A DNA stretch of 64,000 nt, from assembly GCA_013368445.1 (NCBI GenBank), contig JAACJO010000011.1, positions 1,648,369-1,712,368 of the forward strand, written 5' to 3'. The stretch comes from Leucocoprinus leucothites. Its lineage: Eukaryota > Basidiomycota > Agaricomycetes > Agaricales > Agaricaceae. This document shows positions 25,612 through 52,826 of the stretch, one piece after another (the stretch's first letter is position 1; every line of letters starts with the position of its first letter). The notes under the pieces are model-generated. The model did no database searches, was not told where the DNA came from, and saw nothing but the letters and a program-made list of their open reading frames with translations. The translations under genes were made by a program, and so were the position numbers.

Positions 25612-26416
25612 CACTCCAAGCTCATTTTTATTAAACTTTAGAAGGCCTTGAGCGGAGGTTGTGGTTGGTAAACTCAGCCAGATGACGGAGGCCGGCCATC
25701 GAATATGTGAGCACGTGACTTGAAGTCGCGCCGGATCACACATTGAATATCCTTGCTCACTGAACCACCACCTCCAAACCCACTCGTTTTTATAGCGAAG
25801 GACAAGAACTTTGGGACACTCTACTTCTCGCTCTCCTTGGACTAACTACACTTCTGCAGCTACTTGGGTGCAATTTGCAGATGTGCATAGAATGAATCCT
25901 GGTATCAATCTATGGCAGCTAAGTGGGACTTGCTCGCTACAGAACTCAAATGTGGTGCGTACCTTCGATCATGGTGCTATATAATATTCCCAAGATGAAT
26001 CAGACCTACACAGCCCTTTACCCACACTAGGAGGCCCGATTATCACAAGCCCAAACGACACGGGTAGAACTTGGACAAAAATACGACCAAGGGAGCTGAC
26101 TGTCGAGTATTCAGAGCGTTTCGGATGTCGCTAAGTAAAAGAGCCTGGTGCAGAGGGGGTGGCGCACAGTGGGTGTCGTATCCGGTTTAGGTGGGTGGTG
26201 GAATGCGTAGAGGTGTTTGAGAGCTTTCAGAATCCGCTTGTATCCCCTCGTATCCCCCATCCTTTGATTTATAACAGAGTTTTCTTTCTTTTACACTGTC
26301 GTGAATACAAACCCTAGCATGGATCAATCCTACCGTAAGGCGCTTCTACAAACCCTGGCACGGATCAATCAAGTTCAAGTATGCAAATCGTGCCACCTTG
26401 CCTATTCATCATCATC
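25612..26416. other. Upstream region of the recombinase/peptidase fusion gene
   Basis: No gene. A 23-bp direct repeat (26307-26329 and 26348-26370, two mismatches) lies just before the start codon at 26417. A T-rich leader precedes it. Confidence 0.5.
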
Positions 26417-29400
26417 ATGGCTCCATGCTCAGAGTGTGGTGTTTCCGTTACGGACATGAAAACTCATATTCTGAAAGTTCATCGGTACATCCAGGTCTAT
26501 ATGGGCCGGTTCACTGATGGTGAGCTTACTGAAAACACTGACCAAACACCTCCTGAAGCCATGCTCTAGCCCAGATACAAAAGACTTCCATAGGGTACTC
26601 TCACAGGAACGCAGAGGGACGCTGGCCATGCCCCTTCCACTGCGGAAAAGCCCCAATGGGATTGAGCTCCTTGAGGCACCATGTCACAAGAACGCCTGGC
26701 ACTAAAGAGTCGGGTCGAGTCTGTGAGAAAGCAGCGAAAAATAGATATTATCACATCGTTTACCACAAGTTGAGTGACCCACACGAAGAAACACCCACTG
26801 TGGCCAATGAGGAAATGCCTGATGAAGACAAAGGCGCTGGGCAGTCCCTCAATGAAGCTGGGGTGAGCAATAAGTTGGGAGAGAGCGATGATTTGGGAAC
26901 GAGCAGTAATCTGGGAAAGAGCGTTAATTTGGGAGGGGATGATGGATTTTCAGCAGGAAACAACATTCTGGAAGGAGAAATCCATGATGGAACGCCAATA
27001 GCAGAGCAGGAAGGAGAAGAGAGGACGGAAATATCCCGGCCTTATGTACGGCCTCAGCGTAACAGGAGAAAACCAGGAGGAAGTTTCGTAGCCAACCAGT
27101 GAGCTAAAATTCGTTACCTCCTCCTCCTCCCCCCAACAGCTTCCCTCTGACTGTATCATGTCAGGGAACCAAACGCGGCTGCACATGTTCCAAAACGGTC
27201 TTTTGTGACAGACTCAGTTTCGCATTCTCTGGACCCAAAAGACCCTGAGGTCAGAGCAATAATTGATGCTCTCCATCATATCGGCCTTCGAACATATCAC
27301 CCGAGCTGGTTGAAGCATCAAGAAGAGGATGCGATCCTCATTACCTGCCCACGGTGCACAGACAGCGGTGGCATTCCCCTCAAAAAGGCGAGGGCACATG
27401 TGACCGGGGATTCACACCGGCTGCAAGTCGATTCCAACCTCTGGCCAGATGACTTGTGTCACAAACATGCGGGCTCTTTCATCGACATGGAGCGCTATTT
27501 ACCTGACTTTGCCAAAGCACGCAGCAAAAGTGCTCCCAACATGCCTGCGACAACTGGACTCCCACTCCCTCTTAAAGCAGTCGCTCCAGTCCCATTCATC
27601 CCATATGTGATGGGTTTCAAATGCAGCTTTTGCTCAGGTTATTTTGGTTCAAAACGATCTATCCAGGAACACTGGAAATCCACCCAGCAATGTCGAGACA
27701 AGAAAGACAGGGAAGCAGCTGATGGTTATGCTGAGAACTCGTACAAGAGGGTTTATGTCCAAAGTCTTTTCACAACAAATTGCGTCCGATATTTCCCCAT
27801 CAAACCGGTCCTTTCAAAAGAAGCCACACAGGACACTCCATTGGCGCTTTTCCTGGAGCACCTCATGCCGAAGATGGAGGCCCTTAGAGGGTCGGTAATC
27901 AGCACCTCCTCTATTAATGAAGTATCACCGTTGGATCGGTTCACCTGCTTCAGACAGCACACCGACCCATACACAATGATAGATGAAGATGAGGAGATCA
28001 ATGGACATTGTAGTCAGATTGCTGGTGGAGGCTTTGGGCTTGAGGACGGCTACGATGAAGAAGACAGAAAAGATTACGACGATGACGAAGAAAGCAAAGG
28101 GAGCTATGGCGAAAGCGACAGTGATGGCGACATAGACATAGATATGGAAGCGAGTAGCTCAGAAGACAGCTTCTACCAAGACTCTGAGGACGAAGAATAC
28201 AGGACTGACCACGACGATGACTTTGAAGATGAAGAGAGCGAGAATGGAGATGCACACAGCTCCACAGAGCAGGATTCTCCTGGATCGGACTCAGAGTCGA
28301 CCCATAGGTTAAAGAAAATCAGCCTGCACAAAGTTCGACTTCTCCGATCCGTTATCAGTATCCCACACGGGAGTGCAGCAAAAAGGTTATGGACAGGGGA
28401 AAAGCTTGGGCAGACGATAGAGGCATGGATGCAGGCGGTGGTAAAGGGAGTGAAGGGCCTGGATCACATATCAAAGAAACTTCTGGAATGTGGGAACCCA
28501 GAGTAAGGCTCGCTCATTTATGGTCTCTGCCTCGAATCTCACACCTCCAATATAGGTCATTGGGCTATTTCGTTCCAGTTGAAGGAAAGACCTTGGCTAT
28601 ATACTGTGCTACGCTCCACCGATATACAATTGGCATCATCAACTCGCTCAAAGATGGTGGAGGACCTCTCGGCTACAAGTTCCCTGGGCTGACAGCCGAC
28701 GACAAACAGAGAGTGGAGGCCCTCAAGTCCATCCTCACCACCATCTCTCTTTCTGGAAAAAAACGCAGCCTCCAAACATCTATTGTTGAGGCGGCCGTCC
28801 CCGCATTTCATAGCCTCATCAAGCGGTTTTTGTACCCAATGAATCCTGAGGTCGGCTCGCTCTCCACTGCATCAAAATGGGATGATCCACTGGAATGCTA
28901 CCTCGCCATATACTGTTTGGAAAAGGACGGCTCGTTCAAGAGCGCCAAGAATTCTACCCAGGTCTTTGCCCACCTGAAATCTCACATCCGCTCTGCTGTC
29001 TATTATGAATCTCTTATGGAGTTCAAAAGTCCAGGAAACCTGAAGACGCTGGAGATGTAGGTCCAACCGATTTCCCAGCATCAAATCAAGGCCAAATTTT
29101 AACCCGACTTCTTTTCTTCCCAGAATTATTTTTGAGCAGTCCAAAACCCTTCGACGCGTGGGTGTTCCGGGCTCAAGGTTCTCTAAAGTCTGCGATTACA
29201 CCACTTGGATTTCATCCCTTGTCAAAAACACCTCAGGCCCGCCCTCCATTCGTGTATCCAATGATGGAATGCAGGTCACATACAAAGAGAGCACGCTGGA
29301 TATCCACCAGTGGAGACAGGGCCTCCGGAAGCTGCATAACGAGGTGGAGGATGATATGAAACAGCTCTTCCTTGGACACAGTGTTGCTCTGACGCTCCCA

Positions 29401-32144
29401 GAGAGAGTCAGAGATGATTGGGACTGTCCCAATGGCTCTTATGGCTGGACAGGCCAGGTTTGCAAATCAACGCCGATGGTTATCAGCACCAACGCACCAG
29501 GAATGGACCATCTATCCGAAACCGATCAGTTCCTCCCCACCTTGCATTTCACGCCAGAATCACGCTGTTTTACAGAGGCAGCGAAAGGTCAAAATATTAA
29601 CATTGACTATTTTCATCTCCAGCCCCTCCGTGAAATTTGCCAAAGAATATCCCACAATCTGGCTGTCCTTTCTTTTCTTATACCTGGGCCACCATGCAGG
29701 GCCTCCGAATTTGCAGAGTTCCGATACACCAATGGGGCTAGGGAAAGAAACATGTTTCATGACAACGAGGGAATATGGCTTGCGGCACGTCGATTGAAGA
29801 CCGAGACTCAGACTAGGCGCGAATCCTTCATTCCACGGAAATGTCCTCCAACACTTTCAAGGCTGCTGGAGATATATTGTCTAGTCATCAAACCGTTTTA
29901 TGCTTCCTTGGACTTTGCACTTGGAGGAAAATCAGGACAAGATGCCTATATGCTTCACAGTGAATACCTCTGGGTATGGGACTGTATGCCCGCAACTGGT
30001 GTGGCCATTGGACAACGAATTGAGAAGTTTTTCCGTGTATATTGTGGCATCGATGATAAAATCGGCATCCGCATCCACCGCCAAGTATGCGTTGAGGTGA
30101 TCAGAACACTTTTGGGGACACAGCGCGAGGAAGAATACGAGAGCATGAATTTTGCCCACCAACAAATGGGACATTCAGCAAAGACTTCACGCACAAAGTA
30201 TGGGCTCGAGGCAGACCACATGCGTGGGACGAGCAGTGAACTTATGCATATATACGAAGGAAACTCGATGGAATGGTGGAAGGTCTTAGATTGGCATCCT
30301 CATGGTTTGCAGCCAGTTCCTAGATGGCAACAGAAAGCGACGACGACGACGAATCCCAGTTGCCATCGCTGCAGTGCTGTTGACTTGGAGCCACAATCAG
30401 CGTCATTGGGTGTATCCGAACCGCCACTTGGAACTCCGCAGAATGCTTCCTGTGATAACTTGTTCCCAACCCTTGTTCAGGACGAAAACCAGTTGGCTCC
30501 CTTAAATGCACGAGAGCTTTCCCAGACCTCCAACATTGGGGCCTCAAGCTCCAAAATTGTCCTGTCGTCTGAAGATGTTGACGTCAATAACATCAACGAC
30601 AAGGTACATATTGATGAGCGTTCCGGAAAACTTAGCTGCGATGCAGTCTCCTCAGATGAGGCTACAGTGTCCCAAGTCCCATTTGGACCAGCCTCAATTT
30701 CTCAGCTGCATGGTCCTGATTTATCAGATCCTGAACCCTCCGAACCAGCCAAGCCTGGCCAAATTCCCCTGGAAGATCCCGCTCGCGGCTTTGATAAGCC
30801 AACTGCCCCTCTTCGACAAGGCTATAAACTCAGCAAAAACTCGTGCTGGTTGGATTCCAGCCTGCAGCTTCTTCTTGCTGCTTTTTCTCATGCTGGAGAT
30901 GAGGAGCTTGGCAGCTTAGCTTTTGCATTACACCCGCAATCAGCGATGGGACAAGTTCTTTGTCATTTGCAAGATCGGCTAGCACCTTTAGGGATTGGGA
31001 CCAAAACGGAAGATTCTCTGAACAAATGGCTAGATGACAAACGAGCATGTATACGACGGGCTCTTTATGATGGCGGTGTAATAGCAACCATGGAGGCACC
31101 AGATGCACTGTTTGTGAGTTTTATGCACTTGGGGTCTATTGCACCACCCTCAACAAATACTTATAACCCCTCTTTCTTTCTTTCTTTCAACAGGGGTGGT
31201 TAGACGATCTGTTGAAGAGCCCAGATACCCCGGTGTCGATTTCTTCATACCTCCGTTCTCTGTCAATTGACCTATCGGAGTGCTCCTCATCTCAGGATGC
31301 TGATGCCAGACCAGACCATATCGCAATTTCAACTCATCCCCAGGTCGACGATGGGCGTCTTATCATGAGCATGGAATCAGAAGTGGACAGCAGGGATATC
31401 ACTGATTGGTTCGCAAAATGGATACAAATGAAAGTCCCAGAACCGACTTCTGCGCAGTGTGTCCAGGGAGGACACGGTTGGAAAACACGGAAAATATGTC
31501 GGAGCCTTGTGCTTTCTATCCCTGTTCTGCTTATTGTGGAATTATCTCAACCAGAGCAAACAGATATCTCGATCGTGCACGGAAAGCTTTGGAACTTGCC
31601 AACTCAACTGACTGCTGCTTTGGATTCCAACCAAGGCATCGTTTATCAGTTGGTTGGAGTGGGACATTTGTCACGACTTGGTGATGAATCTCACTTTACA
31701 GCTTCTTACAACACACCCGAAGGTGTGTGCACATATGACGATAACAAACATGGGGGGCAAGCCCAGATCCAAGCCCAATTGCTCGACCAGCCCATCCCAA
31801 ATGCATTACAGACACACGCAGTCTATTACCTAGAAGGAGGAAGGGAGTCACAGCTGTTATTCTTCCAGGCTCGACTTGGTTTGTGCCGGGATCTCTTGAG
31901 CATTGGCGCCTCTTTTGCTTGTATTGATGGAGGCACCCTTCCGAACATGCACTGTGCACGACCCGGTTACTGGGCCGTTTCCACCACCGCCACTGATGAC
32001 GGCGCGAATGAAGGTGTCTTGGCCCATTATTACAAGGAAGCAGCTAATGAGAGGTGCGGGGGTCTTGTTGCTAACAAGCGCAAGTTAGAGGGACCAGAGG
32101 CTGAAGAGGAAATGAGGGAGATTAAACGGGGTAAAAGCATTTGA
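26417..32144 (+). CDS. OrsD-like zinc-finger / tyrosine recombinase / USP-like peptidase fusion
   Basis: One open frame of about 1,779 residues with introns 26485-26606, 27099-27164, 28503-28555, 29057-29123 and 31114-31193, all GT-AG. N-terminal C2H2-type fingers (CSECGVSVTDMKTHILKVHR; CPFHCGK...LRHHVTR) are followed by two more Cys/His clusters (CPRC...H....H; FKCSFCSGYF...HW) in the style of fungal OrsD domains, then a long Asp/Glu/Ser-rich linker. The middle third has tyrosine-recombinase signatures in order: Arg in GPPCRASEF (about 29690), IRIHRQVCVEVIR, QQMGHSAKTS and the candidate nucleophile in RTKYGLE (about 30196). The C-terminal third resembles a USP/USPL1 cysteine peptidase: KNSCWLDSSLQ (Cys box, about 30840), SHFTASY (His, about 31690) and a following YDD, then HAVYYLEGG. 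No inactivating change seen. The recombinase part resembles those linked to RecQ helicases in subtelomeric fungal proteins; here no helicase is present. It may be a mobile element gene or a domesticated one. Confidence 0.8.
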
Positions 32145-32629
32145 TTTTGCACATTGGAATGGCTGGAATAGTAGATGGATAATCAACTGTGTTATTGATA
32201 AGGGCCTGTCAAACATTTGTCAGGATTAAACGCCAATGAGGCATCTGAACGTGTTCTAGGCATGTGTATATTGCACTGAATGGAAAAACACGGTTAAGCT
32301 CATTCCAGATGTTCATAGTCAGACAATCCCCATACCAAACACTTTCTCCAAATGCCTGGTTCTCAATGGTGCCCATGAATAAGGCCGCACTCAAGCAGAG
32401 GACTCGCATTGCAATCAACATCAAATACAGACTGTGCATGCATTTTACGTCAATAAATGCCGGGGTTTATTTCGGGAAATAACACCCCCAAGTGATTACC
32501 TCAAATGCCATCTGAACACCCTCCTGGTCGCCAAACTCCTGCCCTACATTTACCTTTTCTGTGCACAAACCAGGCATGTATAACCATGCCATGCACAAGG
32601 CCTAGCCAAATAACACCACTCTTATTCCC
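32145..32629. other. Intergenic region, no gene seen
   Basis: 3' region of the fusion gene and upstream region of the DUF6533 gene. No terminal repeat marking an element end could be found by eye. Confidence 0.5.
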
Positions 32630-33851
32630 ATGATGAACCAGACTCTCGAAGGACAGTACATGAACGGTGCGCCCCTCCTGGTTAGATATGGCTTTTGTTC
32701 CAGTTGCATTAACATCAACCAATGTGTTTTCCAGTAGCAGGCCTAGCTTTACTCCTGTACGATCATGTCATCACATTGCAAGACGAGATTCAGTACATTT
32801 GGGGGTATTATACTTGGTCATCAAATGATGGTTTGATTATTCTGAATAAGAGCGGTCTAGACACTCAATTTGGACGGTCAAAGCGTCATTTCTTATCAGC
32901 AGATATCTCGCTCTCATGGGCCAATTGTGAGTACAAAGCAACTTTTGATTATGCCTTTCTTACATAATCACACAGTATAGCCGTCATGTGTTCGCCATCC
33001 CAATCACAAACTGAAGCTCATCATAGGTGGTTAAAGCTTCACTTGGGGATATCCATGGTATTGTTGTTCAATCTTGAGCTCATTATGATGATGCGAGGTG
33101 AGCACTAGCTTATGTCAATTAACCCCTAATGTGCTCACTTTGTTGGAAGTATACGCACTATACAATCGAAAAATGACAATCGGCATTGTCCTGTTAATCT
33201 GGTACTCACTTTGCCGAGTGTATAATATATGGAGCTTTCCCACTGCAATAGCCGAGATTGAAACAGGTAATTACATCGTTCCCAGGAAATCACTGGAAAA
33301 TACTAGATGGCTATGGTATGTAGGCAGATACTGGTGATCTAGTTTCTTGGGCTGAATACCTGCCTATAGTCTCATCATTGTTGTTAACCAAGGAATATTC
33401 TGGTGTATAGGTTATTGGAAACATTGGAGTATTATCAGAGGAGGATTGTCGGACCATCCTCTCACCATAATAATAACTCGAGATAACTCATGGGCTTTGT
33501 TGCTGTCAGCAGGTTTGTTTACTCTGCTTCTCCTTGGGTGAAAAACAAGCTGACTCTATTTAATTGAAGGAGCTCTATTACCACTGGCTTTGGGTGAGCA
33601 GCAGGGACGGGTCATTTTCTGGTTTGGCTTCCTGGTTCACTCAGAGTTTTCATCACTCACGGATATTCTCCAGTGTTGTTGTTGTTTTGTCATCTATAAT
33701 CGTGAGTCATTATTTTTCCATAAAACATCTCACTTTAATTATGATCCAGTCATGCAGGCTAGTTCTCAACACACGAAGCCTCCAAAATAATACCAGTTTC
33801 AATGCAGAACAAGTTGAATTATCAACCATGATAACCACAGGAGAAATCTAG
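32630..33851 (+). CDS. DUF6533 multi-pass membrane protein
   Basis: Agaricomycete-specific family of seven-pass-like membrane proteins of unknown role. The start at 32630 (MMNQTLEGQYMN) joins across a phase 1 intron (32667-32734) to the DUF6533 signature VAGLALLLYDHVITLQDEIQYIW. Further segments that fit the family are LHLGISMVLLFNLELIMMM followed by RVYALYNRK (joined across an intron near 33098-33150), SLIIVVNQGIFWCIGYW, ITRDNSWALLLSAG, VVVVLSSII and the terminal CRLVLNTRSL block, ending at a TAG (33849-33851). The exons between 32800 and 33030, where the second membrane segment should be, are hard to place and look worn, so this copy may be partly decayed. Confidence 0.6.
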
Positions 33852-34635
33852 TGGCATTAGACAAAGTATATGGGTTTATGTTAATATACTGGGCATTAAA
33901 ATCATTTAATACTATTCATGGAAAAAAGTTTATTGAAGAGCTCAGCTGCTGTTTTAGAGAAGATCCTAATGCCACAAGTCTTTGGGTAGCCCATCCGCTT
34001 TGACTATCATAGCACTGATGCCAAACCTTCCCTTGTTGTGACTCAGCATCTTGGTGCACTGAGGAAAGCTATGCTACAGCTCCAAGGTTATTAAGCCTCC
34101 AGTGTCTTTTATTTTGGACCCACAGCCACACTGTCATGTTGGAATACATGCTTCCACAGGCTGGCTGTTGATCATTGGACATGGGCTTGAGAATTCTTGA
34201 TTATTTTGCTAATGTATCATATCTAGTTTCTATAGTTATCAGGTCTGCTGTATACCACCCATGTTTATTGGCCTCTTTGTCATTGTTAGGTATACATGCA
34301 TTCCAGTATTGACAATTTTTGATATAAGAGCCCAGAAGCTGATTCAGCTCTGCAATATACTATTCCAGCTTCATTGCTGGATATCACTGGTGGCAAAGAG
34401 GAAGGATAATTTCCACTACCGGGGGTATTGTGGATATGAGTGGATAAGGCGGGTGATGTTTGTGATAGATGCTGGGGAAGCATTGGATCCTTGCACTTCA
34501 AGTGGTATATAATATGCATGAAATGTGTGTTGAACATAGGGGTAATGAGCGTCATTGGGTCCGTGTCCACAGTTTGTACAAATGCAACGAGTGGGGTTAG
34601 GGCTTTCCATCAAGCCTGGCCATCAAATAAGCCAA

Positions 34636-34738
34636 GACAGGTCATTGTCTGGTAAGGTGGTGACTGAGGTGAGCACCTCACTGCATCAGTCACACCTTAG
34701 ACCGAACTAATGAAGTGCGTTAGCCGGACAGTGACCTG
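34636..34738. repeat. Short foldback element (MITE-like)
   Basis: About 100 bp. It begins CAGGTCATTGTCTGG and ends with the near complement CCGGACAGTGACCTG; inside, GGTGGTGACTGA pairs with TCAGTCACACC around a palindrome GAGGTGAGCACCTC. No obvious target-site duplication. Confidence 0.6.
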
Positions 34739-36099
34739 AGGTGCAGAGGTCTGTAAAGTCGTGAGTTTGAGATGGAGATAATGGCATCAAACTGTCAAAC
34801 GTACCTCACTACGCAACAGGATCCATTAGAACTCGGGACAAATGTGGTACGGCATGGGAGCCAGTGTACAGTATCAGCGTAGCACAAGCTCTCTGGTCAA
34901 GGTGAGTGGCAGGACGTTGACGAGAGAAATTCGCGCACTCTTGGCCAATTGACAGTGTTTGTCACTGTAGACAGTTGCTGGAGCCTGTGGTGGGCTTCAG
35001 GAAAGGAACACTGTCAGCCATGGGAGTCTGCGATAAGCAGTCTGTGCGTTCCTGTAACAGAATATTAATATCTATACCATGCTACAAAGAGACAAACTCA
35101 CCCCTCAGCGCTGTGTAGCACCTGGGGCCACAGCATCCCCATCCCACAGGTCGAGGTGTTGCACAAACGCTATACTGAGATCATGGTTAGGGAAATCGTT
35201 GCAGTGGACAGGAACGAAGTTTCCTCAGATGATGTCACATGCCAGATTTTCGCACGGCATGCTCGTGACATTCATCTTGTCGCAATCCTACATCTGGAAA
35301 TGTTGAAGAGGGTACCTACCTCCTCCTGCATTAACGGCATGGTGCTTGTTCAGAACTGAATGTTCCAACGTTATCATACATATATACCAACAGACAGGAC
35401 CTGACTCAGCTGCCGCCCAATTCTTCTGGCCTTGCATCAGAAAGAAGGCAAAAGGTAGAGGAAAGTAAAGAGCTAATCGAGTCAGGGAGGTGCATGGGTT
35501 GAAGTGGGTGTGAGGTAGTTACTGCTATGCTAATTAAATTAGTTCAAGGGGTGGAGAGAATGGATAAAGCTTACCGGATAACCCTGCTCTTGTTGAAGCC
35601 TGATTGAGGGATAATAGAGATGGTAGTTGGGGCTGCCACGCTATGTATCGGTGGAGATCATTGGTAGCTTAACGGATGCTTTAGAAGGGTTATACTTGTC
35701 GGTTGCATGGCTTCGGCTGGGCTTCGAACGGTGCGGTTCAAATCGCATGTGAGTAGGATAACTATTTGCCATCATTTTGATTGTGTGCATAGCGGGGAGA
35801 GGTACGGGGGAGAGGTACGAGAGAACGTATTACATGCCTATGCTGCCCAAGTACAAAATAGTCCAATCCAAAATCAGCCTGGTTCAAATCTGCGCTTAGA
35901 CCTCTATAACGTCTATAGCATCTCTAGTGTGTATTATTTGTCACTCCATCCTCTCCAACATCCCCATCTCCTCCTTTCCTTTCGCGTTCCTGTTCTCACT
36001 CAAGATTGGGGTCGCATTGCACTACATAGTACATGGAAACGGTAAATTTTTACACAAAGGCATGTAAATTACGGCCTCTTGTGATTGAGCATAGATAAG

Positions 36100-36320
36100 T
36101 TAGAGCTCGCCATCCCGTGACTCGATCATGTGATTGAATTGATATCCCTGAAATTGGAGGGGCACCTCGATTTCTGTACCTCTCGATAAAGCTCCATTCT
36201 GATGTTGTAGAAACTCACTAAATGCCCCATTACTGTCAGCCAATTTGTTCAAATAGTATGGGACGGCAGCATTGCCCCGCCATGTTATCTCTATCTTATC
36301 TTTTCCGGGTGGCATGTGAT
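36100..36320 (-). repeat. Diverged dispersed repeat, copy 1
   Basis: The minus strand reads MPPGKDKIEITWRGN...LSRGTEIEV, closely resembling the plus-strand reading at 46366-46590 (MPSGRDKMEIAKRSN...LSGGAEIEV). Similarity is visible both at DNA and protein level. The family is not recognised. Since the other copy lies next to Ty3/gypsy integrase debris, a retroelement origin is possible. Confidence 0.6.
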
Positions 36321-36343
36321 AGGTAACTAGTGACACAGGTGTG

Positions 36344-36479
36344 ACCAGACTCTACTCTTTTTTTTTTTTTTAAAAAAATTCGAGTACTAGATTTAAAGCA
36401 CAACGGGTGCGCAATAGCAGTCCCTCGAGGTAGGCTACACCTAAAGAACCCTCTCAACAGTCCAAACCAGACTCTACTC
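36344..36479 (-). mobile_element. Small poly(A) retroposon with target-site duplication
   Basis: The 14-bp direct repeat ACCAGACTCTACTC occurs at 36344-36357 and 36466-36479. Between them is a 108-bp segment that, on the minus strand, ends in seven T followed by fourteen A. A T run like a polymerase III terminator plus a poly(A) tail and flanking duplication are hallmarks of a reverse-transcribed short RNA. The parent RNA is not identified. Confidence 0.65.
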
Positions 36480-39400
36480 GTCGCAGGTTTCTGCGCCTTC
36501 CAAATCCAACTTCTCTGACAGTTGGTCCTGAATGCCTGAAAGATAACATCGTGCTTGACTATACCCATAAGATCTATGGACAACAAATTTGAACCTAAAT
36601 ATAGACCATGTATGAATACGAATAAGAATGAGAATGAGCGTCACTCATCTCTCCCTTCCATGCCGTCCACCGTGATGGCCAGGCATCCTTCTCTCCCCCA
36701 GCTGCTACCACTGCCCCCTTGAAGTCAGTCCCCTTCACCATACCGCCAAATCACCCTCCGACACGCAGCCCCCTGCCCTGCGGAATACGTAGATGGGCCA
36801 AGACAATCGTGGATCATTGTGGGAAGATGATATAGCCGGAACGTCTGGTGACAATGTGGGCATGTTCTTTGTATACGCACTGGAACCATCTGATTGACAG
36901 TGGGATATAGCAAATCATGATAGACCCGTTAGCTGAGACATCTGCACGCCGACTTTATTGGGGTACCTAACAAATGAATGCAGTCAAGGGCTTTAACACC
37001 CATTGATTTGTTGTCACCAATAGCGCCTTGTCTCGTGAGTTCTTCCCCTTCCACAGTTTCCTGAATGCGCGACTATATTCATGATGGTTCTAGGATGGAG
37101 TGACAGACGTTTGGCCAAGCCCCGGTTCTAAAGATAGGAGGTTTTTGCTCATCAGATTTACTACATCACCACCGCCAGTAAATCATTCTTCCTCAATCCT
37201 CCCGCCGCACACCCTGACCTCCGCAACATCTGCACTGACTTCTCAGGCCGGAATTAGGTAGTGTACTAATGGTAAGCAGATGGCTCTTGTTCGCGTGCGT
37301 GGTCTGTCGCTTACATCCGTTACATTCCTAGTAGGCATGAATACTGCGCCCGCTCATTCAATATACTCCCCTTGCCAACCGCCTCGCTCACCATTGCTCT
37401 CTTGCATCGCTCATCAGTACTCCAAAGGAGCATCAGAGTGGAGTAAATGACTCTGGTTCTGGTGCAGCACAACGGACGTGGATGATAAGGGATACCACAA
37501 TCACAGCGACTGTCACGGACATCGTGGTTGTGATCAGGTTGACTGCGACCGACCAAGAGGATGGGGCTGTGGGATTGGGGAGTGTCGGGATCGGTGGGAA
37601 AGAGAGCGTGAACATGACAGGAGAAGAGAGATGTGAAGGAAATGTATGACTGCCGCTATAGCTGCAACAACATCACGCCGACGATAGTGACCACCTCAGA
37701 CATGAGGAGGGCCATCCACATCAGTGCAGTGGGTGAACCTCTCATTGCCATCATCGCGCATGCTTAGCAGCGGAATGGGCAGCCCACAGTCCAGTTGAAG
37801 GTACACTTGGAAGGATCAGAGCTAGGACTGCTACTGGTGCTGGAAGTGGTCTGAAGCCAGGTGGTGACGTGGGTGGTAATGACATGGTCCCTGGTTAAGT
37901 AGGCTAACGTCTACACCGTAAATTTGATTTTCTTTTTTCTCAATCTTCCCTTGCTATCCCTCTTTTGATCAACTAAGCCGCCACATCTGTTAATGACTCT
38001 TTCCTTATTGCCTCGACAATTCTTTTGTTTGTTTGGTCGCTCTCACTCGCTTTGATATAGCACAAGATTCAATGTCCACCTACGCGCAGAAAAGATTGTA
38101 AACTACTTTTGCACTCCATTGGGATGGATCCATGGCAAAGGTGAAGAAATAATAAGCTCAGCCTTTCGATGCCAATGCACAAGAACTGAGGGACTCAAAA
38201 TCACTTGTGTGGCACTTGAGCTACCTACAGAGCCCACAAAACACAAGGGGACAATGGAGCAGAGATTAAACTACAGAAAACATATCTAGATTCTTTGACA
38301 TGTCAGTGCGCAACCCACACATTCTTGGACCCGCTGCGTGTTTGCACTCGATGCTTCCAGCTAGTGACGTCCGACGACTTGGATGATGCTATATACGAGA
38401 CCGCCGGACCCTGCCCCACCTGTCCACATACAGAGCATAATTAGGGAGTACAAGGAAGAGCCAATTTTTGAGGGCAAGAGACCGCAGGCATTGGTACACA
38501 TGTATTCAAACTGTTCTGCAACCTTTGCCCACTCACGCCTTTATTATAGTTGAGCCATTTTCCAGATGAGTTATGTACATGATGCATTAAGCACAAAGCA
38601 AATTGTATCCAGTGTCCCATGACATTGAGGGCGAGCTGGGGTTAGGGTCTCCTGTCGAGCCCGGCCATCAAACCTTACATAATGATCACTCCTAAGCATT
38701 CGCTGCTAACCTGCCTGGTCCTCATCATTCACTCAGCGCCTCCCTCACTTGGCTCGTTGCACTGGCTCTCAGCCCTACGATCCGATCATAAAGCGGCATC
38801 TGTGCCGGACACCTTGGTTAATGCTAATAAGAATTTACTTGGATGTTCTTACTCAACTTCACATGACGACCCATGAGCTTAAAGAGGGCAAGGAAGGCAG
38901 GGGCAACACAAGTTGAGAAGAATGGCGGCCCAGAAGGAGTTAGCCTCTTGAAGCCAATAAGAACAAAGATTTTAACACGGCATGGAATAGGCCCATGGAA
39001 GACCAATTATTTGGCAGGCGATTGCTTAGAGCCCAGGGGTCAAGCACTGCACAGCCTGCTATTGTTCACAGTTCAACACGCCGCGTCAAGGCTGGACCAT
39101 GGCCAAATTTTGACATGGGATAGTTCTCGGTAGGCGGCACAATGACATGAAGGGGAGGTCTGATGAGGCGGACACAGCCGCAGCACCACCACAAACTTAC
39201 CCCAGTTAGCAAGGCATTGACTCAGCTTCTAGATCCTTATCGACTGCGTATCGTCACCCATCTTTCGACGTTACATTGCCCGACTACCCTCGTCGCCCAT
39301 TGCTGTAGGATCCTTAATTCAAAAAGCAAGTCACGTCACGAAAAGCCGTTTTGGCGTTCGGTCATCTCGGAGTCACGCCCAAAATTCGTCCTGCTTTTCG

Positions 39401-39534
39401 TGCAATTGTCACTCACGAGTTTGTGGCTATTGGTGGCAACAACCATGTTGACCTAGCTGGGGTTGGGTCAGTTGCATCGAGGAGGCGTTGGGATCGAGGA
39501 AGATGAAGGTCACCTTACATTATATCCCTCCCGA

Positions 39535-41028
39535 AGCCTGGAGCAAACTTGATCAGCCTCGGGACGTGCAGCATGAGTTCGAATAAGCGATGGAATTACC
39601 TGGGAGTCGTATGGTGCTGAAGCATTAAGATCAAGGCACGAATTGTGGCAAAGGGATTTTCGCAAATCCACAGAGGGACTTTGGAGAAACATTCCCGCCA
39701 GTGGTGAAGTTCACCACGCTTCAGCTTTTCCTGGTTCTCGCAGCCCGCCTGGATTTTGAGCTCCATCAACTCGATGCCGTAGCTGCATACCCTCAGCATG
39801 AACTCGACGAGGAAATACATATGGAAGTACCGGATGGTGTGTGGGAACTTGAGCCAGAGCTGAAGGGGCGATGTTGGAAGCTGCAGAAGATGTAGTATGG
39901 TTCGAAGCAGACAGTGGAAGGCGAAATTGGATGGGGTATTATTGGAGTCTGGATTTGAGAAGTTGCTGGCTGATGACTGCCGATATCCAGTGAGAGAATG
40001 GTTAAATCGATTTGCTGGTGTTAGCTTATGTGGATAGCATGGCGACTCGGATTACAGACCAAAACTAGAGAAGATCAACAAACTCAAGAGTTATCTGTCT
40101 CAAAAATTCGAAATCACTGACCCCGGAGAGCTGCGGTATATCCTTGATATCCAGGGATGCCGAAATAGATCCGCTCACAGCATCACGATGAACCAAACTG
40201 CCGATACCAACTAAGTTCTCGCCAGATTCAACGACTGTCGTCCTGTATCCACCTCGCTGCCAACGAAACCTGCACTGTAGAACGCTCAGTCACCATGAAA
40301 GAGGAGGAATGAAAGCACTATGACCAGTATGCTACTGGCATCCACTATGTCGCACTTGTCGGCTCGCTCCTATATGCTACGCAAACTCAACCTGACATCC
40401 AATTTGCTGTTAGTTTAATTTCGCAATTTGGTGGGAATCCGGGTATTGCTCACCTCGAATCCGTGAAATGTGTCTTGCGTTACCTCAAGGGAACGGCTGG
40501 GTTTGGTGCTGGGTCGCAGTGGGAGTGAATCTGTTGATCTCATTGGTTGGACAGACCCGGATTGGGCCCAAGATCCAGATAATCGGCGTTCAGTGGGAGG
40601 TTTCGTGTTTGGTATTGCTGGGAGTTCAGTCTCTTGGGCATATAAGAAGAAATCAACGGTCGCTTTGACGTCCGTAGAGGCTGAGTACATGGCGTTGTAC
40701 AAGGGAAGTGATGTTGCAGACATTGCGGCGTGACGTAGGTTTCCCACAGAGTATAGCCATGATCATTCACTCCGACAATCAGGGCTATATCACGCTTATT
40801 CGTAGCCCTGTCTCCTTTATTATCGGCCAAACACATCGACATACGGCATCACTTCATTCGAGAATGTGTGCGGGATGGTGAAATTCAGCTTGAATAGTGT
40901 CCACGAAAGACAAGCTCGCTGATGTACTCACAAAAGCTCTTCCACGCGAGTCTTTTGAGAAGCTTCGGTTGCGTTTGGGTATGTTGAAAACTGTGGGTTA
41001 ACAGATTGGTATCCTCACAGAGCGGGAG
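39535..41028 (+). mobile_element. Decayed Ty1/copia retrotransposon (RT-RNase H part)
   Basis: Fragments of a copia polyprotein in all three frames with many stops. Readable pieces: RDFGETFPPVVKFTTLQLFL and ELHQLDAVAAYPQHELDEEI (reverse transcriptase, 39670-39820), a YVDS remnant of the YVDD box (about 40028), and RNase H with WTDPDWAQDPDNRRSVGGF and SVEAEYMAL (40540-40700). The end KLRLRLGML region is followed by the purine-rich AGCGGGAG at 41021-41028 and TGTTGAAG at 41029, which looks like the polypurine tract and the first bases of a 3' LTR. Gag, protease, integrase and the 5' LTR are not visible. Inactive. Confidence 0.8.
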
Positions 41029-41744
41029 TGTTGAAGGGTTCAGGGTTCAGCTCGGATATTAGCGCCGACAAGGATCAAGTATTGTTGACTTGCATTTGAT
41101 TTAGATAGCTGCTGGTTCTTTATATGCCTGTAACTGACACCTGGGAGTTCTTTCTAAGTTCTTCTCTGAACTACAGCCGCATGTATCTCTCCCCAGCTGC
41201 CGTTGAGCAGCACTCAAATAACCCTTTGGGCTGAGCCATCCCCAACAAGAACCGGAAACTCAGGACAAAATAGCTTAGAAGTCAGAAACATGCATTAAAG
41301 GTTGTCACATCCTCTTCAAGATTTAAATGACGTGCGACATTTCGCTTGGACATCACCTTGCTCGTTGAGCCTCCCTTGGCATTTGACTGCTGCTTGCGTG
41401 CATGGAAAATACCATTAGACCGAGGTTGTTCCCCAAATCTATTTATGATCCTGTGACTTTTGCTTCAAACGAAGCCCGATAAATATCTCCTAGTTCCCAT
41501 GGCGACAAAGCAGCCTGATTAGAGCCCCAGTCAGCTGTGCATTCTTCAAGTCCTCTTCCCCCCTTGAGTCACACCGCGTGACAACAGACCAATCCTGGGA
41601 CCGCCATCGTTAGGTTTGTGCGCTTGAGGGCTCATTCACGCACCTGCTCAACGCTTGACCCAAGAATACGAAATCCTATCCTGGACCCGTGTCACAGAAT
41701 TGGGTTGCATACCGCCGCTTGCACCTTCGGTTTTACTGATAGAA
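41029..41744. other. Probable copia 3' LTR remnant and spacer
   Basis: The sequence begins TGTTGAAGGG directly after a polypurine tract, as a 3' LTR should, but its right end cannot be set without the partner LTR. No gene up to the next start at 41745. Confidence 0.4.
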
Positions 41745-43512
41745 ATGAGAGGAGCGTATCGAACACGGGGAAAGGTAAGCCACTATTCATGAAGCCAGGT
41801 CCCGTCGTTATTTCTTGCTGGATAACCGCTGCTGTTAGAACCCTGTAAAGCTTTCCGTGGACCCAATCCATGCACTGTCTGATTCACTTCTGAATGACTT
41901 GATCAAACTTGCAGTCAAAGCTGAGAACGTGGTTGATGAGGATGACGGAGCTGTTGGGTTTGGTGCCGTTGAGCCCCTCATAGTAGCCAGCGACGAGGAC
42001 TCGCAGGTGTGTGAGAATGCGAAACCGGCTGCTGGTTCTTCGAATGACGTTAGAAAATGCGACAGGAATGCCCTTGCTGATGCAGGTAGGTTAAATCAAC
42101 TGTTTGCTTCGAATTTACCACACTAATGCTATGAATTACGCCTTCCCTTTATCCAGGACAAATTTCTGGAAAGAAGCGCCTGCATTCGTTGATATCAGAT
42201 GACAAAACTATAAAAGCATCAATAGAGGAGCTGGGTGTTGAAATACATGAAGCGAGTCGGTCAAAGAAAAAGAAGCGAAGCCCTTCCAAAGAGAGGAGAT
42301 ACAAAGCAAGACAAGCACAAAAACTCCTGGAGGGGCATCTCGTTAGCAGAGGTGTGAGAGAAAAACTGATAGCCCAAGATGCGCCCATTACCACAAGCCT
42401 CAGGACTGAATCGTTGCCCTCCGCCTCTGGCGCATACCAAGCCCTCAAGTTTGTGCCCCACCCGAGTGATAATAATGCGCCTACTTTGAAGGAGCTCAAG
42501 GACAAGGGTTACAAATATGTTCTGTGGAATGGTGAGACTTTTCTTTTCTTCCTGCAGCGGTTGATTCACTCATGAAACTCCGTGTCTGGTGCAGGTCAGG
42601 ACTCCCGTCCACTTCTTGATAGTCAGCTACGGGTATTCGGGGTGCTTGCTGGTCGTCCTAACACAGACGATTGGGATGACGTGTGCAAGTGTATGTATGA
42701 CGTAATGCAGGCAGAAGCCTTGGATATCAAATTCAAGGACAAAGATGTCAACCATCCACGCGGTGAATATCCTGCTGTCAACGTTGGTACAAGTCCTGGT
42801 CAGGGTTCTGACCATCCCGTGGATCTTGACCTTGGAGATTATGCAGACATGATGAAGCGTTTGCTCCTCCTCAAAGACATCCTTCGAGTCGCAAACTACC
42901 AGTGCTGTACATAAAGCCAGCATATCTAAGTTAACAAGATCCTAACGGCTTGGACTGCCTACAGTTTCCCTGTGTGTCTGGTCACCCAATCTTTATGACC
43001 ACCTCAAGACTCGTCTCGATCAGTTGTTCGCGCACCCAACATTCGGGCTCAACCTTCGACGCATCACACCAGCTGGCGTCTATCCAACTGCAGCATTCAA
43101 CTTTGGACCCAACGTCTGGACCCGTCGACACCGTGATGCCAAAAACTGTGCCTTTGGTTGGTGCGCCATCACAGCGCTGGGGGAATTCAACCCAAAGTTT
43201 GGTGGACATTTGATCCTTGAAGACTTGAAGCTTGTTATTGAATTCCCACCTGGGTCAACCATCTTAATTCCTTCGGCAACACTGACACATGCCAACATTC
43301 CCATCCAGCATGGCGAAACCAGGGCTTCATTCACGTAGTATTTCCCTGGTGGGCTTCTTCGATTTGTAGACAACGGTTTCCAAACGCTGGAGAAGATCAA
43401 AACAAAGAGCAAGAAGGAATACAAGGCGCTGCTTGAGGCTAGGACTGCAAACTGGCCAGAAGGAGTAGGAATGTATTGTACCATAGGGGATCTCCTTGAG
43501 AAAGTAGACTAG
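41745..43512 (+). pseudogene. TET/JBP-like 2-oxoglutarate/Fe(II) dioxygenase, one nonsense codon
   Basis: Five exons join cleanly: 41745-41774, 41839-42085, 42157-42531, 42595-42906 and 42965-43512. The N-terminus is MRGAYRTRGKNPVKLSVDPI; a Lys-rich segment (SRSKKKKRSPSKERR) follows. The C-terminal half is a double-stranded beta-helix: SPNLYDHL, AAFNFGPNVWTRRHRDAKN with the metal-binding H-x-D, GWCAITALGEFNPKFGGHLILEDLKLVIEFPPGS, then SATLTHANIPI with the distal His and ETRASFT with the 2-oxoglutarate-binding Arg. At 43336-43338 a TAG stands where the family has Gln before YFPGG; beyond it the frame continues normally for 57 codons to the natural stop. Known fungal relatives oxidise 5-methylcytosine or are predicted to. 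The assignment to TET/JBP rather than another dioxygenase clade is from motif memory. Confidence 0.72.
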
Positions 43513-45904
43513 GTGCACGCAAGCGCTTACTCAGTGTTTTGTGAACACAATTTTAATTGAATAGATACAGACAGGACAATGCAGTGGTTGATGGTGGTCA
43601 AAAAGGCCAACTGCGCCATGCTAGGCGAGGCGACAGCTTCATTAATACCGCCAGTTTATTGGCAGCATCGTGCTAAGTCACAACCACACATTCATGGGTA
43701 TTAAGTCCAGTTATTTCCCGAACTAGCTGGTTGCTTACATCCTCTGCAGTCAGTGCGTCAGCCCACCCACTAATGCATATTTCCAAAAGACAGTGCACTG
43801 AAGTAATTCAAGGCGCTGAAGACGCGGAAGATATCATCAAGACCAATCTCAACCACTTTCCTGGAGAAGTCATAGATGGCGTATTCACTGGACCGGATTC
43901 AGACATGCCACCGTATTATGGGAAATGATGTCACTTATGGATAAGAAGTCGAGCCGATACCTTTAGCGCTGCGGAAGAATGTTGGGGACAAGCTTCCCAA
44001 GAGCATACTGCACACGAAAACACACCCAGCCTCCAGGCCAGGCGCTCCCAAGGGACGTTGTGCAAGAATCGGATAGTGATGCTGGAAACAACATCCCATA
44101 TCTCTAAGCTATAGGCGCCTGTAAGCGTGTAGCTTGTCTCCTTAGCAGTAGCAATTATGTCCATAGTGCGCAGACGGGTAACGAGCAAAGACTGGTAGTT
44201 ATCACGCCAATTTTTGTCCACCTGAACAGCCTTGGCGAGAGCTTGGGATCATGCTCATTAATAATATCAAGCCAACTGTGGGGCAGAGCTTAAGGTGAGA
44301 GCATCCACCCATGAGGAACGGTTCGTAGGTCATTTTCAAATGGCCAGACAGCACTTATATTTGGAGTAGGTGTACGCGGTGCATTGTATGATGTTTTACA
44401 GGTATTGGAATGATTTGACACAGGACAAGTCAGAGAGAGGTAGAGAAGAGTCGGTCATGAAATGCCCCCATCTAAAGGCTACCCTGAACCACATTCTTCT
44501 CTCCTTTTGTATGTTTCAGATACACCAACAGCAGTCGCATTGTTGAAGGATAAGTACTAGGTTGTGTTGAATCGAACCAAGACCTGACAAGCAAAGAGAC
44601 TGACTAGACCCCCATGTGCCGCTGCGATCGTTCAGATCCCGGGTCTGTGTGATGCGCGGTACCAGGTCACGAATGGTAGGATGAGAGATCTTGCGGAATG
44701 CCAAAGATGAGAGCGTGCTGAGAAAATCCTGCGAGCTTAAATTCATCATTTCAACGACCATTCAGAGTGCATGACGCAGGGAGCACTGGTATCAAAGAGT
44801 GAAGATATGAGGCGCACGATGTACTTAAACCGGGTGCAAGAATAAGAAGTGAGTGCGCAGCTCAAGTGCCCAGGCTCCGAGACTGTAGAGGATAACTTGG
44901 AATGAGAATAACACAGCGAACAGGGTATTTTGTAGAACATACTTTAGCCGCCTCGCCCAAGGTTCTCCAAACGAGTATGACATGATACCTTTCTTTCCAC
45001 ATCATTAAGTATGCCGTCGTCTATCTTAGGCTCGCCATTCCGTCCGATGAAACCGCAGGTGTGAGTGGTTGAGGACGCAAGCTAAGAGAGAGAGACGTGA
45101 CAGTTCGCGTTTTGTTTGAAGCCACTGCAGTCCACGGGCTCTGTGGCGTGCTTGACGCTTGAGAGCAACGTTAATAGCATCGAACAGAGGGGTGACGAAG
45201 GCAAAGTTGAAATTTATTGGAATTCTGAACCAATGTAAGATTCAGAATGAGCGGGATTAAAGAAGACGTAGTGCGTGGGTTGGCACAAGCAACGCGAGCG
45301 CTGCAGAGGTAAGGTGAGAGCAGTTCGGGGGACAAAAGGCTTCGCATACATACTCCAGCCACGACCAGTAGCCCGCCATTGTAGCAGGAGTACCATCCTT
45401 CCTCTATCGATTGACATCCAGGCCTATGAATGGGTGAGATCAACACAACGAATATGACTTTTTAAAGTTGCACACACCCAGTCGTGTTACCAGGATCTTC
45501 CCAGCACGCATGATGGAGCGCCTTCCTTTTCATGATGTGAAAATTGGATATGATAATATTGGATGCGCCGTTGGCCTATCTTGTTTATGCTCGACATAGA
45601 GGCGCTTGTTTGCGAATTGGATTCACTTTCCTAGACGTTTGACCTACTCACTTACGGAATATTAAGAGCTCGCCGTTGAAGATGGAAGATTAGACAGGCC
45701 TTTTCGAGAATGACAGATGTTAATGCCTCAGGCAAAGACGGTACCATAACCAGTGTGCACACTAGGGCGAAACGTCATGAAAGTAGGCTAAGATTGTCCT
45801 TGTGTTACAACCACAACACATGGGAGGAAGGATGAAGAAGTATTCTAAGGTAAAACATAAGCCGGTAAGTAGTCGAAGAAAGCAAACGGTTGGACTTACT
45901 ACAA
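43513..45904. other. Region without a supported gene
   Basis: About 2.4 kb with many short frames in all six readings and no family motif or splice-consistent chain. Probably decayed transposon sequence. Confidence 0.45.
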
Positions 45905-46320
45905 CGAGCACACTATGAGCTCGGCCACAAGGGCATCCTCACAGCTCGCGAACACATCCTCGAACGCTTAGGTGTTCGTATCTTGGCGACTATATGCGTC
46001 TGAAGACCTGTCATGAATGTCAAGCGCGAAATGGCGTATGCTCCCACACGAAAATGGGCGCGCCTTGGGGTCATTCCATCTTCTAGGTATCTTGTCACCG
46101 ATAATGGACCTGCATCCATCGCTGCTGTTGAGTACCTCTAAAAGCAATATCATATTAACCACATCAAGATCTCACCTGATAACTCTCAAGCAAATGGCCC
46201 AGTCGAACGTCGTCATTGTGATGCAAGGGAGTCATTGGTTAAGGCTGTAGAAGGTCAGGAATATGGGTGGACAACCGTCGCACCATCAGTATTATGCCTC
46301 TGCCCTCAGACCGCGAAGAG
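45905..46320 (+). mobile_element. Ty3/gypsy integrase fragment, decayed
   Basis: Out-of-frame pieces of an integrase: a zinc-binding HHCC remnant (AHYELGHKGILTAREHILER, then LKTCHECQARNG), and the core VTDNGPASIAAVEYL with a stop, HINHIKISPDNSQANGPVERRH (catalytic Asp and Glu regions). Frameshifts and stops show that it is dead. Confidence 0.75.
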
Positions 46321-46365
46321 GGAAAGGAGAGTAGGTTGGTAATCTACCCCTAAGCCTTGCTGCTT

Positions 46366-46590
46366 CAGGATATGTCACGTGCCGTCGGGAAGAGATAAGA
46401 TGGAGATAGCAAAGCGAAGCAACACTGCCACTCTGCTCATTTTTAACAAATTACCTGAAAGAACAGCTGCTTTTAGTGTGACTATACAGAATCAGAAGAG
46501 AGGTTTATCGGGAGGTGCAGAAATCGAGGTGCACTCTCCAATTCCAGAGATATCAATATAATCACGTGCACGAGTCGACGCAACAGTAGG
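46366..46590 (+). repeat. Diverged dispersed repeat, copy 2
   Basis: Partner of the minus-strand copy at 36100-36320, about 10 kb away and in opposite orientation. It follows the gypsy integrase debris directly. Confidence 0.6.
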
Positions 46591-48628
46591 GTTGCGTAAA
46601 ACCTCCCTCGACCTTTTTACTGGTACTCCCTGAGTAAGCACTCAGCTGTCTCATGTGAAGAATTCGAGTGTACGCCAGACATTCCAGGGCAACCATGCCG
46701 CGGCGATCGACTACTACCTTTGGCCAAACCCATTGCGAATGGAGGAAAATCTGCTACATTATGCTTGGTAAGTGATCCGCCTAAGCCCTAAATTTACCCA
46801 GTCCCAAGCATCTCAAACATACATTTGATGCCAGCATTGAATGAGTTGAGCAGACGAAATCCACAAATCGGCAATTAGAAGGTGTGCTTGTGCTCTCGTG
46901 CCCTTGGGTCTCTTCTCACCCTGTCGGTTGACCAGCTTTGGTGGTTTGATTTAATAGCCATCTCTGGACCGCCAAATGGGGCCAAATGGGGTCCATCATG
47001 CGATGCTGCTCAAACAGTCGACCTCACCCAGTCTTTAGGCTCCAAATGAAAAACCAACAAGGAGGCTGGGCTGTCATATTACCCTACCGTGGGTCGCTTT
47101 CAAAGACGATCGCAGGTGGCTAACAACAGCGCCTAGCATTGTAGGGATCGGACGCCTGCTCTGAATTTACCATCCTTCCCCATCCCCGCTGCGACTACGT
47201 CGCTTCAACCTTTCGCATCCAATAAGGATAACCGTCGCTTGCGTCCACAATCTCTCCCTCAGCTTCCTTTCCTTTCTCATTTTCAAATTTCGTCTCTCAT
47301 TTCTCCGTTATCATTTTCCTTTTTCCTTTTAACCCACTCTTAATACTCGCCTTTGCTGGCTTCAACGCCGCTGAGTAAAGACTTGTCATTCAACTGACAG
47401 AAGTCCACCCCTTGTTCCTTTGTTTTATCCAATCTTTTCATCCTACCCTGTGCCTTGCTCTAAAGATCGCCATAAACTCCACTCGCCATCCGCGCCTCAA
47501 CTTGCCCTCTCTTTACCTCAATTCATCGCTTTGTCTAATAGTGTGGATCCTGGTGAGCACGTGGTTTCCTTCTACATCAGTTTCCACCACCAATATTCCT
47601 TTAATATATATCTCTAATTTCGAAATTTCCGAAAATCGTTTCTACCATCCATAGGTACTCGTAGCAGGTTTTGTATGAACACTATGATGTATCTATTTAT
47701 TTCTCCAGTGAAATCTACCCCACTTTCCATATCTATCCTTTTGAGCGGTACGCTGACTTCGCTACCCGAAGGGTTATCAGGGTGGAATTTTGAAAAGCAG
47801 GGTAGGGTTTTATGCTAGGGACAGGCCAGGGACAGGTAGGGACAGGTAGGGACAGGTAGGGACAGGTAGGGACAGGCCAGGGATAGGCAAGGGACAGGCT
47901 AGAGACAGGTAGGGACAGGCCAGGGTTAAGCAAGGGACAGGCTAGAGACAGGTAGGGACAGACCAGGGACAGACTAGGGACAGGAGGAGGACAGGAAGAG
48001 GACAGGAAGAGGACAGGCAGAGGACATGTAGAGGACAGGCATGGACAGGAAAAAGCACAGAGCAGAATATTTTTGTGCGCATAGTACATTATTTGAGTAC
48101 AAAGTGAATAGTTTATTTTTTTGTCTACGACATTGATCTATAAGAGCAGACTGGACATGTATGGAATGAGAACTGTGTGGGTTTATGGCCTGATGGCATT
48201 CTCGTGAAACGAGGATGCCACTTTTCTTACTTTATGTACACATTAAAGAGATATGACATTGAAGTATGGGCATCATAACTCATGAGGGATGTATTCGAAC
48301 TCAATTACTTACCCAATATTTTCATCTGCGATATCAAGGAAACACTGATCTCCAGATACTCAATGTGTGGAAGTGGTTTATTGCTCTGCGATGGTACAAG
48401 AAAATGAACAGGGAAATACAACTAGGACAGAGAAAAACATCTACCAAATTGAGGGCACAAACATAAAGTACTGTATATACAAGAAACAAATACAGAGGCA
48501 AAGGAATATCATCTGCGATGTGAAGGAGTTTGGGTGAGCAAGAAGCCAGTATAAATTGAAGAACATACCAATTATGGGTACAAACATCATCTTCGGCGAC
48601 GAAGCCGTTCCAGTCCAATAAGTCAATG
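46591..48628. other. Gene-free region with CT-rich sequence and a minisatellite
   Basis: Pyrimidine-rich sequence at 47260-47450 resembles a fungal promoter/leader, but the ATG-led frames after it are short and hydrophobic without motifs. The minisatellite at 47816-48057 and the 3' region of the next gene follow. Confidence 0.45.
47816..48057. repeat. Minisatellite, about 10-bp unit
   Basis: Around twenty units of the type GTAGGGACAG with variants (GCCAGGGACAG, GCTAGAGACAG), changing toward the right to GAAGAGGACAG. There is a higher-order repeat of about 55 bp (CAAGGGACAGGCTAGAGACAG twice). The open minus-strand frame across it is a by-product. Confidence 0.9.
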
Positions 48629-52017: not shown

Positions 52018-52090
52018 ACACACGCGACTCTTGAGTACGCAAAAGGACCGGCGCTCAAAGACCGAACAGTGAGAGGAGTGCGTTTCAGAA

Positions 52091-52524: not shown

Positions 52525-52826
52525 CCAAAGTTGATTTGACGCTTTGACGTCACATACTCTCTTGCAGTTTTTTTTGGAAGGAATCCCATTACTTCGACAA
52601 CTGTCACCGAGCTTTCAAACGTATACTCTCTCCTTCTAAATAACGTGGATATCCGCGCCTCTTCCTAGCTCAGGGTATGTGATATTCTACTTCGGTTCCC
52701 GAAAGCGAGCCAAAAAGCGTTGGGTGCTGATTCAATCGAAAACATCGTTATAACAATAGAACTGCAGGTCCAAAACAAGAGAGCTCGTGTTTATGAAAGT
52801 ACAACGCAATATACAGTGTCCAAGGT

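Follow-up and report, generated by a model that had tools for sequence, protein, structure and literature searches.

A predicted tyrosine recombinase gene with a C19-like peptidase domain, first inside the left end of a likely mobile element in Leucocoprinus leucothites

The stretch of DNA analysed here, referred to as the window (64,000 bp of Leucocoprinus leucothites), lies at the right-hand end of contig C11 (1648369-1712368 of 1712368) in an assembly of 47 Mb and 110 contigs, and C-numbers denote contigs of this assembly throughout. It contains a six-exon gene of 1803 residues on the plus strand (26417..32144) in which an OrsD-like region, a predicted tyrosine recombinase (YR) domain and a C19-like peptidase domain follow one another. 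The gene begins 286 bp inside a sharp left end that is common to three copies of a repeated element. The window holds the left part of this element (26131..47770, plus strand, 21,640 bp), with the gene first and decayed fragments after it, up to position 47770 where the element is cut off. The gene is proposed to be the recombinase gene of a large transposon.

The gene and a collinear paralogue

The exons, all on the plus strand, were read as exon 1 (26417..26519), exon 2 with N-terminal Cys/His clusters (26570..27098), exon 3 with the OrsD-like region and an acidic linker (27165..28502), exon 4 (28556..29056), exon 5, an open frame of 663 codons that holds both the YR domain and the peptidase Cys box (29124..31113), and exon 6 with the His/Asp half of the peptidase and the C terminus (31194..32144). 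The splice sites of this model were picked by us from the sequence, and joining the six exons across GT-AG introns of 50-80 nt gave 1803 codons and a terminal stop with zero internal stops. All seven motifs quoted in an earlier sequence-only reading of this DNA were found in the spliced translation in the order given there, namely GPPCRASEF (residue 1012), IRIHRQ (1139), QQMGHS (1170) and RTKYGLE (1180) for the recombinase and KNSCWLDSSLQ (1395), SHFTA (1653) and TYDD (1667) for the peptidase. The peptidase Cys box lies 215 residues downstream of the YR tyrosine within the same uninterrupted exon 5. A tandem repeat at 26865-26934 in exon 2 (18-bp unit, 3.9 copies, or 36-bp unit, 1.9 copies) encodes a linker rich in Gly, Ser, Asn and Leu.

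A paralogue at about C21:251.5-256.8 kb on the minus strand is collinear with the window protein: an OrsD region and an acidic linker are followed by a single open frame holding the YR and Cys box, and then by an exon with the His/Asp half. The identity between the two is 35% over the exon with the YR and Cys box (39% for the YR part) and 28% over the His/Asp exon of the peptidase. The paralogue keeps both the Cys and the His boxes, and its last intron has the same place and phase as that of the window gene, according to the splice sites as read. Since a collinear relative in the same genome has the same layout, the fusion was deduced to be real and old, and the retention of this layout at such a distance points to selection on one protein. 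The earlier claim of one intact gene was borne out, both by the uninterrupted exon (one open frame in the paralogue) and by the shared last intron. Recombinase and peptidase are very likely one fused gene.

The OrsD-like Cys/His clusters named in the earlier reading were weak in the window protein, where the OrsD model (PF12013) scored 13.5 bits, below the cut-off of 26.6. The region concerned (residues ~245-400; 27265..27732, plus strand) aligns with the OrsD domain of the paralogue, which scored above the cut-off (44.9 bits, E 4.9e-10), and it is the paralogue that lends support to this part of the reading.

Catalytic residues of the two domains

Tyrosine recombinases carry R, K, R, H and a Tyr nucleophile in this order, with the tyrosine nine residues after the histidine. 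The YR catalytic region of the window protein (29650..30340, plus strand) comprises R1016 (29698), K1049 (29797), R1143 (30079), H1174 (30172) and Y1183 (30199). These assignments were derived from an alignment, A3, of five sequences: the window protein, the paralogue and three loci with a YR followed by a DEAD-type helicase (C22, C51 and C10), the latter four being 39, 19, 19 and 19% identical to the window YR. R1016, E1019, K1049, R1143, Q1144, G1173, H1174 and Y1183 are among its 30 invariant columns, and the tyrosine is nine residues past the histidine in 5/5 sequences, so that the window YR has the catalytic residues of the superfamily. Four of the five YR residues singled out by the sequence-only reading (R, R, H and Y) fall in these invariant columns (P about 1e-4). 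The fifth, the histidine of IHRQ, did not hold up, being Tyr in all four aligned relatives. Shuffling the 420-residue segment 200,000 times gave a YR-like pattern (R..E, GH[SAT], Y 9-10 residues on) in 301 cases, a figure that flatters, since this pattern and the C19 patterns used below were composed after the sequences had been viewed.

A genome search with the paralogue exon returned the exon itself, the element copies, a weak match on C2 (E 0.053) and seven distant loci (C22, C51, C100, C10, C58, C68 and C21; 21-25% identity, E 2.6e-6 to 5.0e-5). The next exon was scanned at the loci on C22, C51 and C10, and a DEAD-type helicase domain, which we take to be RecQ-type, was found in 3/3; the loci on C100, C58, C68 and C21 are apparently close copies. 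An OrsD match was present upstream at four of the seven loci (C22, C10, C58 and C68). This order of OrsD, YR and helicase is that of the telomere-linked helicases (TLH). A profile of window and paralogue, compared with one of the three YR-DEAD loci, gave an hhalign probability of 97.2% (E 3.8e-11, 344 columns). On this comparison the YR part is very likely homologous to that of the OrsD-YR-helicase (TLH-like) genes. The suggestion that the peptidase takes the position of the helicase agreed with the three scanned loci, and Pfam gave no helicase match in the 1803-residue window protein. In searches by sequence against solved structures, the best matches had E values of 0.61 and 1.9, or there were none. 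The best PHROGs match for the window (E 0.0083) was a 63-position family of unknown function and was not used. A scan of viral contigs confirmed 0 of 37 stretches.

The peptidase part is marked by two boxes on the plus strand. The Cys box GYKLSKNSCWLDSSLQ (30820..30867) has Cys1398 at 30844, and its spacing recurs in the paralogue and, interrupted by stops, at a locus on C2. The second box, YQLVGV...SHFTASY...TYDD (31644..31742), has His1654 at 31692 and Asp1669/1670 at 31737-31742. Window and paralogue share the Cys-box signature G-Y-x6-C-W-[LI]-D-[ST]-x-L-Q and the His-box signature Y-x-L-x-G-[VL]...H-F-x-A-x-Y, with YDD after the His. Both boxes fit the two C19 signatures in an adapted form, with one position widened after the paralogue had been seen. 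The two C19-type signatures occurred together in 0 of 200,000 shuffles of the window peptidase part and in 0 of 200,000 shuffles of that of the paralogue (figures that flatter in the same way), and a six-frame search of the window gave a single stop-free occurrence of each. As judged from the Cys and His boxes, which are present in both proteins, this part is likely a C19-like peptidase by descent, and an active deubiquitinase or deSUMOylase in the role proposed below is plausible.

The C2 locus (C2:2879105-2880206) is degraded and contains the same Cys box with stops, plus a YDLVGF...HYLAVY box. The scores that link it to the window gene are modest (E 7.7e-4, 29%; E 2.9e-4, 30%), and the case for the link is that both halves occur in the right order. 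Apart from the C11 and C21 genes, a search with the open piece of this locus gave no further copy in the genome at E <=0.01. The locus suggests that the same peptidase type may also occur outside this gene family in the genome. Among the neighbours of the C2 locus, a chromodomain frame 2 kb further on was the sole one recognised.

The element, its copies and the chromosome end

The sequence shared by all three copies starts at CTAAGTAAAAG, and the left end, with the common terminal sequence CTAAGTAAAAGAGCCTGG (26131..26148, plus strand), is sharp in 3/3, while the left flanks of the three copies (window, C21 and C22) are unrelated. The C21 copy aligned with 26131-47770 over 21.6 kb, with 42 substitutions and 6 indel events, and the C22 copy aligned with 26130-30562, up to its contig end, at 99.5% with 7 substitutions. 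The 286-bp leader contains two direct 24-nt repeats that are 92% alike (26306..26370, plus strand), and further units similar to them are present in the C21 leader. From their place and repetition, these units are candidate recombinase-binding sites. The left flank of the window copy lies ~0.5 kb past a tRNA-Lys. The left flank of the C21 copy is an OrsD-YR-helicase-type gene (C21:198153 onward) that is cut exactly at the left end of the element, and the same helicase gene is uninterrupted at that point on C10.

All but one of the 42 substitutions between the window and C21 copies are transitions, and 36 of them are at CpG, with 7.5% of bases in CpG. The mutated form of these 36 is in the window copy in 12 cases and in the C21 copy in 24. 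The observed/expected ratio of CpG is 0.63-0.68 inside 26131-47770, 0.90 to the left (1-26130) and 0.97 to the right (47771-63860). CpG decay is the trace left by cytosine methylation of mobile DNA, and the drop in CpG likely marks the boundary of past methylation. The sequence-only reading had offered a mobile or a domesticated integrase. The element is likely mobile, as supported by three copies, one left end, differing flanks and CpG decay; the right end and an empty site were not found in this genome, and domestication is not favoured.

In the DNA from the gene to the truncation, four of the 46 listed frames were scanned, and nothing but decayed fragments was recognised. One is a copia-type reverse-transcriptase fragment (RVT_2, 2e-11, 39629-39892), which passed the cut-off; the other, at 42946-43335, is weakly Tet_JBP-like (2OG oxygenase; E 0.0062) and fell short of it. 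Two older relics, at C65:21647-22999 and C22:61395-61907, match the window from 31922 onward at 80 and 76% and contain stops. The two matches share their first base and span about the last 73 codons of the gene, with as much as 1.1 kb beyond it.

A second element, B (47771..63860, plus strand), takes over at 47770/47771; it is telomere-proximal and truncates the first. It starts GGGTTATCAGGG, and this start recurs with other flanks at C16:1597 and C74:33305. The switch falls within a dispersed repeat, as window 47208-47740 matches many contigs and, at several of these matching sites, the neighbouring bases are matched by the C21 stretch past the switch. Because the repeat at the junction continues unbroken in C21, the window element was deduced to be truncated on the right. 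A search for the right end with C21:174001-176474 gave short matches and no second full copy. Element B has helicase-like frames, of which Helicase_C (59396-60004) scored above the cut-off and an SNF2-like match (58490-59116) slightly below. It also has long frames of no recognised identity on the minus strand at 49042-51820, and may serve to cap broken ends of chromosomes. The telomeric repeats (AGGGTT)n at 63861..63993 (plus strand) form the chromosome end.

Proposed role, alternatives and known systems

We consider it likely that the gene encodes the recombinase of a large YR transposon measuring at least 21.6 kb, with a peptidase part that would probably remove ubiquitin or SUMO. In the proposed mechanism, the recombinase gene would sit first inside the left end and read inward, and the N-terminal OrsD-type Cys/His clusters would probably bind DNA. 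The YR domain, judging from its invariant residues, would cut and join the element ends through Tyr1183. The C19-like peptidase (Cys1398, His1654 and Asp1669 or 1670) would probably strip ubiquitin or SUMO, presumably from the recombinase itself or from the covalent phosphotyrosyl-DNA intermediate. Such deconjugation would stop the host from stripping or degrading the recombinase before strand exchange ends. We infer catalysis by both domains, the substrate of the peptidase and the transposition route from sequence features. Flp of the 2-micron plasmid, a fungal YR, is reportedly under host control by SUMO.

Several observations weigh against this proposal. Searches of the protein database, run with the full protein and region 640-1800 and with alignments A1 and A3, gave no relative at thresholds of 0.001, 0.001 and 0.01, a null that gives no information on rarity in fungi. 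No Pfam YR model matched in five members, and hhalign against XerC, XerD, FimB, FimE, IntS and IntR of E. coli gave probabilities of 0.2-0.5%, with no match, and the YR label therefore rests on the catalytic pattern. This missing profile similarity lowers the YR claim and does not settle it, as divergent YRs can escape detection. The earlier reading had also recognised a peptidase from the Cys box, SHFTA and YDD; the C19-type signatures are present, but the window gene had no Pfam UCH (PF00443) match and did not appear in the list of 38 PF00443 matches for its genome. There was also no Pfam C98 match for the peptidase part. Single-sequence fold models of the YR core (mean pLDDT 33.7) and of the exon-6 half (pLDDT 31.0) were not usable. 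The C22 copy shows 18 indel events in 4.4 kb, and in the last exon of the C21 gene two single bases present in the window are deleted, which may be real losses or sequencing errors. Finally, the analysis turned up neither a natural right end nor a target-site duplication or empty site. The other (first) half of the helicase gene abutted by the C21 copy was found on C10, C58 and C68 only, so that a clean insertion on C21 is not proven, and the left flank of the window copy (25400-26130) has no second copy in the genome and hence gave no empty site.

One alternative is that the gene belongs to a subtelomeric block that was spread between chromosome ends by ectopic recombination or break-induced copying and need not move itself. 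The window copy, which ends near a telomere, is cut short by a telomere-proximal element, neither a right end nor a target duplication was found, and the half gene on C21 lacks its counterpart there. However, block copying does not predict three copies with the same start and unrelated left flanks, and the position of the YR gene, 286 bp inside the end, is as expected for YR elements. This explanation was deemed unlikely. Somewhat less probable again is that one or both domains are non-catalytic, with the YR serving for DNA binding and the peptidase part being a pseudo-enzyme or binding module. The unconserved box II His, the absence of a Pfam family match for the peptidase part and the two deletions in the C21 copy are consistent with this, but R, K, R, H and Y are invariant in 5/5, and two paralogues at 28-35% identity both retain the Cys, the His and the Asp pair. 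The kept catalytic residues of both domains therefore argue for selection on catalysis. That two or three neighbouring genes were joined by a wrong gene model is very improbable: although the model was drawn from sequence alone, the YR residues and the Cys box share one 663-codon exon, and one open frame in the paralogue, and the next intron is apparently at the same place and phase in both.

The YR transposon with a deconjugating peptidase is thus the preferred interpretation. A wider proposal is tentative, and we hold it slightly more doubtful than probable: that the element is the founding member of a distinct large fungal YR transposon group (OrsD-YR-ubiquitin/SUMO peptidase), sister to the telomere-linked helicases; that TLH are YR mobile elements with a swappable C-terminal effector, a helicase or a deconjugase; and that the deconjugase shields the covalent complex. 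A deconjugase shielding the covalent recombinase-DNA complex from SUMO/ubiquitin-directed removal would be a counterpart to the ubiquitin ligase of RAG1, as described in PMC10799480. The gene itself links TLH-like genes to mobile YR elements via the homology of the recombinase part and shows the C-terminal effector to be exchangeable. It also provides a natural test of whether ubiquitin/SUMO marks on the covalent intermediate limit eukaryotic site-specific recombination.

Compared with known systems, the peptidase part is most readily set beside C19 ubiquitin-specific peptidases and the USPL1 type (C98), in which N is usual three residues after the Cys and Asn five residues before it. The window peptidase has the canonical Cys-box spacing, YxLxG...HFxAxY and DD after the His, and differs in having D at the first of these positions and in being without the usual Asn at the second. 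In the TLH-like OrsD-YR-DEAD/RecQ genes the YR is homologous and its catalytic residues are identical; it is followed by a DEAD-type helicase (3/3 scanned), whereas the window gene has its C19-like peptidase there. Starships have two defined ends and short target-site repeats, and their captain YR gene is first inside one end and reads inward. The window element resembles them in being large and in this placement and direction of its YR gene, and differs in carrying OrsD and a peptidase, with its left end sharp in 3/3 and its right end not reached. DUF3435, which we take to be the name of the captain-type model, was not among the window Pfam hits up to E 5, nor was GCR1_C, the DNA-binding domain of CryptonF.

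TLH and OrsD of U. maydis are treated in PMC10532341, and a Starship has been claimed in a basidiomycete in PMC13066641. According to PMC3212892, CryptonF-2_PS and some CryptonS carry a C48 (Ulp1) peptidase. Like the window element, these Cryptons combine a YR and a peptidase of ubiquitin/SUMO type in one element; the window gene differs in its C19-type rather than C48 signatures, in its fused OrsD-YR-peptidase chain and in an element of at least 21.6 kb. DDE transposases with Ulp1, OTU or, in one case, C19 domains are described in PMC2836005 (Ginger1, Mutator; a T. vaginalis transposase_11 with C19), where peptidase-bearing transposases were suggested to activate repair. These share the ubiquitin/SUMO peptidase domain and differ in being of DDE type, not tyrosine recombinases. 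Because both the Crypton C48 and the C19 transposase are in print, a transposition enzyme with a ubiquitin/SUMO peptidase is a known theme. The earlier statement that the parts had not been seen described together therefore needs qualification. The OrsD-YR-peptidase fusion is unnamed in the literature searched, preprints and most subscription papers being outside its scope, and within that literature what is new is the joining of a C19-type domain to an OrsD-YR chain. The pairing of transposition enzymes with ubiquitin/SUMO peptidases, which recurs in PMC2836005 and PMC3212892, thereby gains an example with a YR and a peptidase of C19 type.

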